Assembly: GCA_018401695.1 (NCBI GenBank)
Contig: JAGYKD010000001.1
Span: forward strand, 970,016-1,034,015
Length of the DNA stretch: 64,000 nt
Direction of reading: 5' to 3'
DNA from: Flavobacteriales bacterium
GTDB taxonomy: Bacteria > Bacteroidota > Bacteroidia > CAIKAF01
Position 1 is the stretch's first letter; every line of letters begins with the position of its first letter. The notes under the pieces are model-generated. The model saw only the letters and a list, made by a program, of their open reading frames with translations, was not told where the DNA came from and searched no databases. Of the stretch, positions 1,505 through 16,367 are shown in pieces. Position numbers and translations under genes: made by a program.

Positions 1505-3301
1505 CTAGTTTTGAAGGCTAACGTCATCTGTCTTTTGGTATTGTTCGCCTAAGGACTGCCATTGGTTACCTTTTTCAGAAAAACCGTAAAAGTCCTCATA
1601 CCCCACGCGGTTGCTGATGAGGTTTTTTCGCAAGTCCATCAGAGATTTTGCAAAACGGTTGTCTGCTGGCTTGGGTAAGTCAAAAGGTTCGTTTTCAGGA
1701 ATGTTTACAGGGACATAGCTGCTATCGGCCCTTACCATAAAAAAGAAGGCATGAGGTACCAAAAGGCTGCCCGGAGGCTTGGGGACATCTACCCTACGAC
1801 TCATTTCTTCGGCGACCAGCTCCGGGCCAAGCATTACCGGTTTTGTTTTGTAATTGGCCTGAATGACCCCGCCAATCCAAGCTTCGTAGGCTTGCTGGAT
1901 TCCTTCGGGAGAAGGGTTGCCGGACTCAAACTCCAAAAGTTTCTCGTGAAGTGTTTTATATTCCGGGCTGTTGTCACCTCCAAGGCTTGGATAACGCTTT
2001 ACTTTTTGTTCTAAATACCAAGACCTGCGCAGCAACTCTTTGCCTAAAACAACCACATCGGGGCGTAGTCCTTCCACCTCTTGCAGGTATAGGCCTGGAG
2101 AAAGAAAAATGTCCCATTGTCGGGTAAGTACGATGCTGTTTTCCGGCAGGCTTTGCAGGGCCGCACGGGCGTAAACTTCTATAAAATCCCTGTCTGATCG
2201 GTCGCATCGCTCCCAATGCTGTTGTATCGAAATGGCAGGAAGCAGGAAACTTAAAAGGGGAATCCAAGCCCAGGAAGGCTTTAGCATTGAAAGGTAATGC
2301 CAGGCTGCCGACGTGGGAATAATAAGAGCTATAGTAGCGGAAAGGTAGTAGGGTTCAATATCGTGAATTTGGTAGCTGCTGGCGTAAACCATGCAACTGA
2401 TGGCTTGAATTCCCACCCAAATGGCTTTTTTACCGGCGACCATAAAACCTGCTAAGGCAAACAGCAAGCCAAGGCCTAAATCAATGGGCAATCCCCTTAA
2501 AAACAAACGCATTTGTTGGCCAAGAGCACCCTCCTCACCAAACATCCAAACCCTATATTGCCAGCCGCTCACATGTCTGTAAAAGCGATCCCAATCGGAA
2601 GGGGCGCCCCAATTCACCAAAGGGTCGGAAGAGGCCAAAGCCATCATGGATCCATATAAAGCAATGGGTATAAGCACTGCGGGACCAACCAAGTTTTGAA
2701 AACTGCGCCACCGGCCTTTCCAATTCTGGTGCGCAACAAACCAAACATAGGCCAAGCCCGGTAAAAGAACGATGGAGATTAGGTGATTGCTGAATATAAA
2801 GCCGGTAGCTACGCCTAACCATATCCAATCTTTTTTTTGTCCATGGTTCCAGGCCTCCATCAAACGCCACATCCAAACAGCAAGCAAAAGCATTTGCAGG
2901 GCATGCACTTCTACAGCAGTAGCTTGTTCCCAATACCTCAAACTCAGCGAAAAGGTGAGCGCGGCACCTGCGGCAATCCAAGGATTATTGAGTTTGGGCC
3001 AGGAAAGCACAAAGCGCTGCAAAACAAGGGAGCCTAGCAAGGCGCAGGCCACATTAAGGCCAAGGCTTACCCACATGGGTTGGACAAAGAAGAATAGCTT
3101 TTGCACCAAAAAACCAAGCCAGGTAAATAAGGGGTATCCTGTGGGGTGAGCTACCCCCGGCAAGGCTTGGACGGCCATTAACTCGCCGGAATCAATTTCT
3201 TGAATGCTTTGGGCCATGGTTAAGACATAGACCAACAAGAGAATGAAGCCATGGATAAGATACGACAGAACCAAGGGGCGAGAAAGACGAGCTATTACCA
3301 T
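1505..3301 (-). CDS. DUF2723-family multi-pass membrane protein (GT117-like)
   Basis: 598 aa; EIDSGELMAVQALPGVAHPTGYPLFTWLG motif, many TM segments; paralogue of the preceding gene. Confidence 0.8.
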   Translation of the reverse strand: MVIARLSRPLVLSYLIHGFILLLVYVLTMAQSIQEIDSGELMAVQALPGVAHPTGYPLFTWLGFLVQKLFFFVQPMWVSLGLNVACALLGSLVLQRFVLSWPKLNNPWIAAGAALTFSLSLRYWEQATAVEVHALQMLLLAVWMWRLMEAWNHGQKKDWIWLGVATGFIFSNHLISIVLLPGLAYVWFVAHQNWKGRWRSFQNLVGPAVLIPIALYGSMMALASSDPLVNWGAPSDWDRFYRHVSGWQYRVWMFGEEGALGQQMRLFLRGLPIDLGLGLLFALAGFMVAGKKAIWVGIQAISCMVYASSYQIHDIEPYYLSATIALIIPTSAAWHYLSMLKPSWAWIPLLSFLLPAISIQQHWERCDRSDRDFIEVYARAALQSLPENSIVLTRQWDIFLSPGLYLQEVEGLRPDVVVLGKELLRRSWYLEQKVKRYPSLGGDNSPEYKTLHEKLLEFESGNPSPEGIQQAYEAWIGGVIQANYKTKPVMLGPELVAEEMSRRVDVPKPPGSLLVPHAFFFMVRADSSYVPVNIPENEPFDLPKPADNRFAKSLMDLRKNLISNRVGYEDFYGFSEKGNQWQSLGEQYQKTDDVSLQN

Positions 3302-13755: not shown

Positions 13756-13877
13756 AATTTTCAATTTGATTGACAGCAAGTTACGATAATTTTGGGATTG
13801 TTTTGCAAAAACAATAAAACACATGTATCGGGGATTGTTAGAGGGTTTTTGTGGGGGAATGGCGTGGGGATACTTGG

Positions 13878-13949
13878 TGGCCTCGACAGGAATCGAACCT
13901 GTATCTTAAGTTCCGGAGACTTACATACTATCCATTGTACTACGAGGCC
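13878..13949 (-). tRNA. tRNA-Arg (anticodon CCG), copy 1
   Basis: Reverse complement GGCCTCGTAGTACAATGGATAGTATGTAAGTCTCCGGAACTTAAGATACAGGTTCGATTCCTGTCGAGGCCA folds as cloverleaf; anticodon loop CTCCGGA. Confidence 0.95.
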
Positions 13950-13979
13950 AAAAAAAAGCCGATCTTCCGATCGGCTTTA
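13950..13979 (-). terminator. Rho-independent terminator-like hairpin immediately 5' of tRNA-Arg copy 1
   Basis: Minus strand AGCCGATC-GGAA-GATCGGCT followed by T8, directly abutting tRNA position 1. Confidence 0.7.
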
Positions 13980-14091
13980 TATAGCAGCTTGTTTTGGTGT
14001 GGGTTAGGGAGTAAATTCAGGCGTTTAAAAATTACTAAAAAATGCCAGCAGACATGTTTTAGTGGCAAAATCGAGTGTTTCTAAGAAAAGC

Positions 14092-14107
14092 CATTATATT
14101 TATAATG
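14092..14107. promoter_or_regulatory. Perfect inverted repeat upstream of the AbiE-like operon, candidate autoregulatory operator
   Basis: CATTATA-tt-TATAATG about 60 bp upstream of the ATG at 14169. Confidence 0.4.
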
Positions 14108-14168
14108 TTGGCAAAAATGAGTAATTTAAAAATATGCCAAATATAGTACCGATAAGCAGGGTTGATCT

Positions 14169-14939
14169 ATGTCTAAAATCATTGACCGCCAAGTAGCGAA
14201 GCATTTCAAAGGCAAAGGGAATTTCGACCGAGCTACCCTAAGTGCCTTTTTAACCGATTTGAATCCGGAAATCACCGAAAGTGCCTTGGCATGGAGAATC
14301 CATAATTTGGTGAAGCGAAAGGTGATTGACCAAGTAAAATTGGGCGTATATACCATTTCAAACAAGGCGGCCTACAGACCATTTGTATCAGATAAGCTGG
14401 CTCAATTATCAAAGATTGTGGCCAAGGAGTTTGACCGGTTAGATTATTGCCTTTGGAGCACCGAATGGCTGAATGATTTCACAAGGCATCAATTGGGAAC
14501 CTTCTTTTATATACTTGAGGTGGAAAAGGGTTTTGTTGAGGAGGTGTTTAACGCCTATTTAGAAACCAAACCGTATCGCGTGTACCTCGATCCAACAGAG
14601 GACATCATGGAAAGGTATGTGGAAAGTGAAATTTCCATCGTAATTAAGCCACTAATTAGCCGTTCGCCAAGACAGAAAATTGCCATTAAGGAAAAGTCAA
14701 AGGATAAAATTTATGTACCGACTTTAGAGAAAATGCTAATTGATGTGTACAGCGATGCAGTAACCTTCTATGCCATTCAGGGAAGTGAAATGGATGCGCT
14801 GTTTGAAAATGCCTTAAAGCGCTATCCAATAAACTTCACCAAGCTTATTAGCTATGCTAGAAGACGAAATAAAGAAGAACAAATTAAAAATTACTTAGAG
14901 AACAACTTTGGTGCGCTTGTAAAAGATATTATAGAATGA
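14169..14939 (+). CDS. AbiEi-like / DUF6088-type antitoxin-transcriptional regulator
   Basis: 256 aa; N-terminal winged-helix-like region (DRATLSAFLTDLNPEITESALAWRIHNLVKRKVIDQVKLGVYTI); 4-bp overlap with an AbiEii-type nucleotidyltransferase. Confidence 0.75.
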   Translation: MSKIIDRQVAKHFKGKGNFDRATLSAFLTDLNPEITESALAWRIHNLVKRKVIDQVKLGVYTISNKAAYRPFVSDKLAQLSKIVAKEFDRLDYCLWSTEWLNDFTRHQLGTFFYILEVEKGFVEEVFNAYLETKPYRVYLDPTEDIMERYVESEISIVIKPLISRSPRQKIAIKEKSKDKIYVPTLEKMLIDVYSDAVTFYAIQGSEMDALFENALKRYPINFTKLISYARRRNKEEQIKNYLENNFGALVKDIIE

Positions 14940-15991
14940 TAAAAGCACATTGTTTTACCAAAGAGTGGATCAACGGCTTTAAGCAGCAAAAGCATTTGAA
15001 GCGTATCAATCCGCCGATACTGGAGAAAATGATACACGCCCTTTTCTTATTGCAGCAGCTCAAAGCTCAGGGGCTGGATTTTACCTTCAAAGGTGGAACA
15101 AGCCTTGTGTTATTGCTTGCCAAATCGAGAAGGTTTTCGGTGGACATCGACATTATTACCACGCATAGCCGTGAAGAAGTTGAAGCTATCCTGAACAAAG
15201 TGGTGGCTAACTCACATTTCAATACATGGGAACTGCAAGATTTAAGGAGCTATAAGGAAGGTGTGCCTAAAGCACATTACGCATTTGATTATGCATCGAC
15301 CCTAAATCAAAATGCCCACTTTGTATTGTTGGATATTCTTTTTGAGAAAACGGATTACCCAAGGTTATTGTCAGCTCCTATTCAATCGGAATGGATTGAT
15401 TCCGAAGCCGTATGGGAAGTATCGGTTCCGTCTATTGAATCCATTTTAGGAGATAAACTCACTGCCTTTGCTCCAAATACTGTTGGAATCCCTTACGGAA
15501 GGGGCAAGGAGCAGGAAATCATAAAGCAGCTTTTTGACATTGGTTGTTTGTTTGATGAAGCGGAAAATATAGAAGAAATTGCCTTAAGCTTTGAGAAAAT
15601 TGGAGCAAAGGAAATCAAATACCGCAAACTTGAAATTGGCGTATCGGACATACTGGATGATATTTTCACCACTTCTTTACTCCTCGCCAAACGAACCAAA
15701 AACACCGAAGACCCGGACAAAACAAGATTTGCAGAACTCACTAACGGAATACGTAGGTTCGAAGGATTTTTGATGGCAGAGAAATTCAAAATAGAAGATG
15801 CCATTCTTGCAGCAGGTAAAGCAGCGTACCTCGCGAAAAAATTAAAGAGAAAAGACCATTCAGCCATACAGAAATTTGATGGTCAGGACATGAGTAAACT
15901 GGAAATTTCGGAAGAGCTAAACTTTTTGAACAAGCTCAAAAAGTCGAGAGACAAGGCAGCATTTTTCTATTGGTATAAGGCCTTGGATTAA
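14936..15991 (+). CDS. AbiEii/AbiGii-type nucleotidyltransferase toxin
   Basis: LDFTFKGGTSLVLLLAKSRRFSVDIDIITTHSRE..., the GGTSL...SVDIDI nucleotidyltransferase signature; later SVPSIESILGDKLTAFAPNTVGIPYGRGKEQEIIKQLFDIGCL. Confidence 0.87.
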   Translation: MIKAHCFTKEWINGFKQQKHLKRINPPILEKMIHALFLLQQLKAQGLDFTFKGGTSLVLLLAKSRRFSVDIDIITTHSREEVEAILNKVVANSHFNTWELQDLRSYKEGVPKAHYAFDYASTLNQNAHFVLLDILFEKTDYPRLLSAPIQSEWIDSEAVWEVSVPSIESILGDKLTAFAPNTVGIPYGRGKEQEIIKQLFDIGCLFDEAENIEEIALSFEKIGAKEIKYRKLEIGVSDILDDIFTTSLLLAKRTKNTEDPDKTRFAELTNGIRRFEGFLMAEKFKIEDAILAAGKAAYLAKKLKRKDHSAIQKFDGQDMSKLEISEELNFLNKLKKSRDKAAFFYWYKALD

Positions 15992-16187
15992 GAGACAAAA
16001 CCTTATGCATCTGAGCTCTATGATAACTGTCTAACGACCTTTCGTTCTAAATTCAATCTGCCCAAAAAGCCGTTTGAGTTCAAACCATGCTTACCCAAAC
16101 AGGAAGAGGATTAACCAAAGGCGTATTTTACCCAATGTTTTTCTTATTCTAAGGCCTTTTATTTCAGGACTTAAAATAGGGTTGACG

Positions 16188-16259
16188 TGGCCTCGACAGG
16201 AATCGAACCTGTATCTTAAGTTCCGGAGACTTACATACTATCCATTGTACTACGAGGCC
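16188..16259 (-). tRNA. tRNA-Arg (anticodon CCG), copy 2
   Basis: Identical tRNA body to 13878-13949. Confidence 0.95.
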
Positions 16260-16289
16260 AAAAAAAAGCCGATCTTCCGACCGGCTTTA
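16260..16289 (-). terminator. Terminator-like hairpin between tRNA-fMet and tRNA-Arg copy 2
   Basis: Minus strand AGCCGGTC-GGAA-GATCGGCT + T8; the C/T difference from copy 1 gives a G-U pair. Confidence 0.7.
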
Positions 16290-16294
16290 TCTAG

Positions 16295-16367
16295 TAGCGG
16301 GGGTTGGACTCGAACCAACGATCTTCGGGTTATGAGCCCGACGAGATACCTACTTCTCCACCCCGCA
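16295..16367 (-). tRNA. tRNA-Met, initiator-type (CAT)
   Basis: Reverse complement TGCGGGGTGGAGAAGTAGGTATCTCGTCGGGCTCATAACCCGAAGATCGTTGGTTCGAGTCCAACCCCCGCTA; GGG/CCC anticodon-stem pairs and unpaired 1:72 are initiator features. Confidence 0.92.

Follow-up and report, generated by a model that had tools for sequence, protein, structure and literature searches.

An AbiE toxin–antitoxin cassette bracketed by duplicates of a whole tRNA-Arg gene in a Flavobacteriales bacterium

In the 64,000-nucleotide stretch of Flavobacteriales DNA analysed here (the window), a two-gene AbiE cassette lies between two direct copies of a segment that contains a complete tRNA-Arg(CCG) gene and the hairpin on its 5' side. 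The cargo is of a known kind; its placement between whole-tRNA duplicates is new, and we found no description of AbiE between tRNA duplicates in the titles and abstracts of the papers found. The reading that we prefer, with a probability of about one half, is that homology-assisted insertion duplicated the end of a recipient gene and that the toxin–antitoxin pair counter-selects pop-out of the cassette.

The repeat copies (13877-13988 and 16187-16298) are 112 bp long and 97.3% identical; a repeat search of the window gave, on extension, a longer version of 121 bp at 94%, and the likelihood that such a pair arose by chance is negligible (BLAST E 5e-49). The repeat spans the last ~5 nt of tRNA-Met, a terminator-like hairpin and a complete tRNA-Arg(CCG) up to its 3' end. 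The tRNA genes are on the minus strand, where the order is tRNA-Met(CAT), hairpin with T-run, proximal tRNA-Arg, AbiE operon, hairpin and distal tRNA-Arg, the AbiE operon itself being coded on the plus strand (Table 1). In both copies the hairpin and T-run stand directly 5' of tRNA-Arg, and the proximal hairpin separates tRNA-Met from tRNA-Arg. A sequence-only reading of the window had described a repeat-bracketed AbiE operon with a whole tRNA-Arg in each copy and no integrase in the segment; ARAGORN, repeat and profile searches confirm this, since the AbiE genes are alone between the repeats, with neither an integrase nor any other gene found there. That reading was right to include the whole tRNA-Arg and hairpin in the repeat, which extends further to take in the end of tRNA-Met and stops at ~16298. 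No further copies were found in the whole 2.99-Mb assembly, ruling out a dispersed repeat as the source of the pair, and the diverged repeat copies in two congeners, G002 and G003, rule out an assembly artefact.

Table 1. Features of the AbiE locus, in window coordinates
Feature	Position	Strand	Basis or remark
Distal tRNA-Arg(CCG) duplicate	13877..13949 (ARAGORN from 13875)	-	degenerate in G002 and G003
Distal spacer: hairpin and trace of tRNA-Met 3' end	13950..13988	-	sequence
Mobile core	14004..15991	+	left end motif TAGGGGATAAATTC at ~14004; right end, AbiEii stop
Predicted AbiE operator region	14024..14132	+	27-nt imperfect inverted repeats, 14024-14050 / 14106-14132
AbiEi (DUF6577) antitoxin/regulator	14169..14939	+	PF20217 / PADLOC AbiEi, E 1e-80
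AbiEii nucleotidyltransferase toxin	14936..15991	+	PF08843 / PADLOC AbiEii, E 1e-127
Junction region, AbiEii stop to proximal tRNA	15992..16186	.	common to G002 only
Proximal tRNA-Arg(CCG), intact	16187..16259	-	ARAGORN; 68.6 bits
Proximal spacer: end of tRNA-Met, then the terminator-like hairpin with its T-run, immediately 5' of tRNA-Arg	16260..16298	-	sequence
tRNA-Met(CAT), first gene of the tRNA pair	16294..16367	-	ARAGORN

The AbiEi-like and AbiEii identities proposed from the letters alone were borne out by PF20217, PF08843 and PADLOC, and the two adjacent ORFs, which overlap by 4 bp, form a single operon. As marks of AbiE membership we took an AbiEi–AbiEii operon, nucleotidyltransferase (NTase) motifs I–IV, promoter inverted repeats bound by AbiEi, toxicity neutralised without direct binding, and phage resistance. 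Like the type IV toxin–antitoxin system described by Dy et al. (2014; PMC3985639), the locus has a bicistronic AbiEi–AbiEii arrangement, the NTase motif hG[G/S]x15DhD (KGG-x15-DID at residues 52-72 of AbiEii, motifs I/II) and putative inverted repeats of the promoter; unlike that system, its AbiEi is of the DUF6577 type and motif IV reads KQLFD rather than +DxxD. The motif III lysine is present (DKLTA at 173). The +DxxD motif was not found in AbiEii, where KQLFD stands in its place at 197, and the occurrence of KQLFD or KQLYD in relatives makes it probably a subfamily variant of motif IV. AbiEii is AbiE-type by profile and a putative member in function, and the window's toxin is presumably active. 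The arms of the operator region (27 nt, 70% complementary, 55 nt apart) are kept in relatives and are putative AbiEi binding sites. No solved structure matches AbiEi or AbiEii by sequence. The window's genome also has a second, more distant AbiE operon (G000:C12:217205-217963, L074; 40% AbiEi identity), which has a counterpart in G002 and no bracketing repeats.

Comparison of the window's genome (G000) with G003, a distant congener with 62% amino acid identity in Era, indicates how the cassette was acquired. Third-codon identity is 32.6% in era, near saturation, as against 78.9% in AbiEi and 77.0% in AbiEii, which shows that the AbiE cassette was transferred between lineages, not inherited. 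Among 13 near relatives, the AbiE sequences of G000, G002 and G003 group together as a clade (100/100). These relatives, mostly 80–90% identical in AbiEii protein, are found in Galbibacter, Roseivirga, Algoriphagus, Belliella, Salibacteraceae and other Bacteroidota; they occupy unrelated sites, and none outside the window's genus is beside a tRNA. All that those in unrelated genera share with the window is the mobile core, whose GC content of 39.4% is lower than in any of the 2-kb samples taken from the window (mean 48.3%), a comparison that the sequence-only reading had proposed. Transposon ends or another shared terminal structure were considered and rejected: only TAGGGGATAAATTC and the stop codon are common, and no inverted ends were seen. 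The proposal of a horizontally acquired, integrase-free AbiE cassette is supported by GC content and third-codon identities, and by relatives with a single tRNA at the site.

The same site was compared among relatives. G002 has the layout of the window, with flanks ~89% identical; the score of its distal tRNA is 59.4 bits, against 68.6, and AbiEii is interrupted by an in-frame stop at codon 121 (L033:7934-8989), AbiEi being intact. The same AbiE also adjoins this tRNA in G003, where the second copy is a decayed pseudogene whose hairpin and tRNA letters match G003's own spacer and tRNA. G001, G008 and G012 have a single tRNA-Arg after tRNA-Met and no AbiE cassette. The site in G004, whose surroundings are 96% identical to those in G003, holds a single tRNA, a different cargo and a 62-bp remnant of AbiEii. 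The single-tRNA sites that the earlier reading had suggested looking for therefore exist, and conservation of the arrangement across distant relatives, which would have indicated an ancestral state, was looked for and not found; the single-tRNA relatives and the third-codon identities rule out a conserved ancestral arrangement. Because a close sister genome of G000 in the state before insertion was not found, the joins are not readable base by base. In the proximal spacer of the window (16260-16289) the hairpin and T-run leave no obvious room for a promoter between tRNA-Met and tRNA-Arg, and the hairpin stands directly 5' of tRNA-Arg in G001-G004, G008 and G012 likewise.

The distal copy is of the recipient type in both G000 and G003, each carrying its own hairpin letters, and the copies within each of these lineages are more alike than those between lineages: the distal copy of G003 is 81% identical to the G003 proximal copy and 72% identical to the window's proximal copy. 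This distal copy has decayed by ~19%, a value near the ~22% by which the cassettes differ at third codon positions, and the duplication therefore looks about as old as the insertion; a neutral pseudogene dating from the G000–G003 split should no longer be recognisable. These figures suggest that the cassette was inserted and the segment duplicated in a single step, or almost so, separately in the two lineages, or that one transfer was followed by gene conversion.

A TAnnTTTG element (TATATTTG), which we take to be the Bacteroidota −7 promoter element, lies 42 nt upstream of tRNA-Met, while the nearest one upstream of the distal tRNA-Arg is at −196; the proximal tRNA-Arg is therefore probably the working gene. 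No recognisable promoter motif was found near the distal tRNA-Arg, and because this copy is also decayed in two of the three genomes it is probably a by-product. This speaks against the suggestion that the duplicated tRNA is a dedicated recombination handle: the distal copy decays in G002 and G003, outside the genus the relatives of the cassette have no neighbouring tRNA, and the only loss observed, in G004, left a cassette remnant rather than a clean repeat–repeat deletion. Because related MenT toxins are reported to act on tRNA, the tRNA was also considered as a target or decoy of the toxin; this idea was dropped on two of the same grounds, the decay of the distal copy and the position of cassette relatives away from tRNAs.

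AbiE operons elsewhere are also bracketed by direct repeats. We surveyed AbiE loci from class- and phylum-wide searches together with near relatives, using a tight bracketing criterion and a wider, permissive one. Tight direct repeats flank 11 of 65 AbiE operons, compared with 5 of 1762 control windows; removal of the window's genus leaves 8/62 (p 1e-9, this and the following p-values being guides only because control windows overlap and loci are not all independent). Under the wider criterion about a quarter of AbiE loci are bracketed (17/67), against 4 of 40 HipA toxin loci and 11 of 333 random windows. The HipA control is itself raised (10%), and the difference between AbiE and HipA is not significant (p 0.08; 0.18 without the window's genus), so that a bracketing specific to AbiE is not established against this control. 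The repeats are of at least two sorts. In three loci they are the ends of neighbouring genes, namely the 3' ends of dinB (L076), sdaA (L137) and dacB (L126), each ending at the stop codon and with a 5'-truncated gene copy on the far side; in L087 and L089 they are dispersed repeats. Recombination by homology, as proposed from the window's sequence, is thus partly supported, in that AbiE operons at other sites lie between direct repeats, some of which are neighbouring-gene ends. In L089 and at G113:C8:76796-83187 an AT-rich repeat of ~100 bp occurs in a row at a spacing of 0.6-4 kb and also brackets a DUF6577 gene, possibly as a cassette array.

Another arrangement was seen in the window's genome at L192:1698-3810 (G000:C1:573197-575309), where a PIN-domain toxin and a small upstream ORF lie, as a toxin–antitoxin pair, between two 360-bp copies (90.6%) of a gene for a 97-aa lipoprotein-like protein. 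Beyond the PIN pair comes a Polbeta/HepT (MNT/HEPN) pair, and a 57-bp repeat occurs at 3282 and 4712.

In the preferred reading, the horizontally acquired AbiE type IV toxin–antitoxin cassette was inserted just downstream of the tRNA-Met/tRNA-Arg pair, the incoming DNA pairing homologously at one end and being joined by microhomology or illegitimately at the other. A second join placed upstream of the first one, where tRNA-Met has its 3' end, would copy the recipient's spacer, hairpin and tRNA-Arg to the far side; such a pair of joins would thus give a recipient-type duplicate of any gene end. The proximal tRNA would remain the working gene and the distal copy would be a by-product. The ~110-bp direct repeat would allow RecA-type pop-out, and the toxin–antitoxin pair would counter-select loss, so that AbiE may protect its own repeat-flanked cassette. 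For small variable segments, incoming DNA has been proposed to enter by homology-assisted illegitimate recombination (PMC2884548), and AbiE is known to stabilise a plasmid (PMC3985639). The horizontal transfer, the recipient-type duplicate, the single-tRNA sites, the survey pattern and the PIN pair within its 360-bp duplicate all favour this route. Against it, repeats that end exactly at gene 3' ends are also expected from integrase islands, a duplicate of apparently recipient type could result from conversion of one copy by the other, the HipA control is raised, and some AbiE repeats are dispersed rather than gene ends.

Gene conversion is central to another account, possible though rather doubtful, in which a circle of spacer, hairpin, tRNA-Arg and AbiE from a relative integrated by Campbell-type homologous recombination and the copies were then converted in each host. 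At 112 bp and 97% identity the repeat is long enough to serve RecA, the AbiE of G000, G002 and G003 form their single clade at one site, and the dinB copies of L076 agree wholly or almost wholly across ~110 bp in the middle and differ towards both ends, a pattern like that left by homeologous exchange. A plain crossover should, however, leave a donor-type hairpin in the distal copy, where G000 and G003 carry their own type, and the origin of the first duplicate is left unexplained. An older tandem duplication of tRNA-Arg, with AbiE inserted between the copies later or swapped in by recombination, would explain the native-type copies in each lineage, and tandem tRNA copies are common; but G001, G004, G008 and G012 have one tRNA-Arg, and the distal pseudogene of G003 shows only ~19% decay while era third positions have reached saturation between the two genomes; unless it was renewed by conversion, the copy therefore postdates the split of G000 and G003. 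We regard this as very improbable.

A relic of a tRNA-targeting integrative element, its tyrosine integrase lost or acting in trans and its attP comprising the whole spacer and tRNA, would account for repeat ends that coincide with tRNA 3' ends. In such islands the integrase is part of the element and the far end retains a fragment of the tRNA (Islander; PMC4383910). The cassette resembles them in having been inserted beside a tRNA, in having tRNA-derived sequence again on its far side and in a presence that varies among relatives; it differs in that the full tRNA and its 5' hairpin are duplicated, the segment is 2.2 kb and a tyrosine integrase is absent. Elsewhere than between the repeats, the genome does have an integrase next to a tRNA-like fragment, together with numerous C-terminal pieces of integrases, and many integrases would be needed to place AbiE relatives at targets as unrelated as dinB, sdaA, dacB and dispersed repeats. 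The inclusion of the 5' hairpin, too, is unlike the tRNA fragment that defines such islands (PMC4383910), and we consider this origin unlikely. In the same genome, a 429-aa integrase-type ORF at L197 (G000:C14:154010-155398) adjoins a weak partial tRNA match (31 bits), possibly as a conventional tRNA island. Seven scattered fragments (L191-L196, L201; G000:C12:290762, C1:573797, C1:740755, C14:34825, C12:528541, C1:550085 and C1:1463516) match only the C-terminal ~50 codons of Phage_integrase; with up to 93% DNA identity and further common repeat blocks, they resemble a family of dispersed repeats in which a relic of an integrase is carried along.

A likeness to the preferred insertion route is found in small variable segments (PMC2884548), which are small accessory segments between direct repeats with no mobility gene; their repeats are mostly under 30 bp, whereas those here are gene ends of 88-259 bp or a whole tRNA with its spacer. 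The filters of Islander discard both matches in full-length tRNA genes and candidates without an integrase (PMC4383910).

The locus alone is of moderate interest, and would be of more if the survey pattern holds. Integrases are the usual means of tracing the transfer of toxin–antitoxin and defence genes; the two-gene cassette described here passes between genera and, in this genus, lies between long duplicates of host sequence with no integrase. We suggest, tentatively and as an extrapolation that may well fail, that Bacteroidota have a general recombinase-free route by which small toxin–antitoxin cassettes are inserted beside core genes with duplication of the recipient's gene end (tRNA-Arg here; dinB, sdaA and dacB elsewhere), the pair holding an unstable duplication in place, so forming minimal addiction islands that island-finding tools reject by design. 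If this is general, target duplicates would be a direct marker of such transfers, and island finders that require an integrase or discard full-length tRNA matches would miss these cassettes. The idea that toxin–antitoxin pairs persist by punishing repeat–repeat deletion would thereby become testable.
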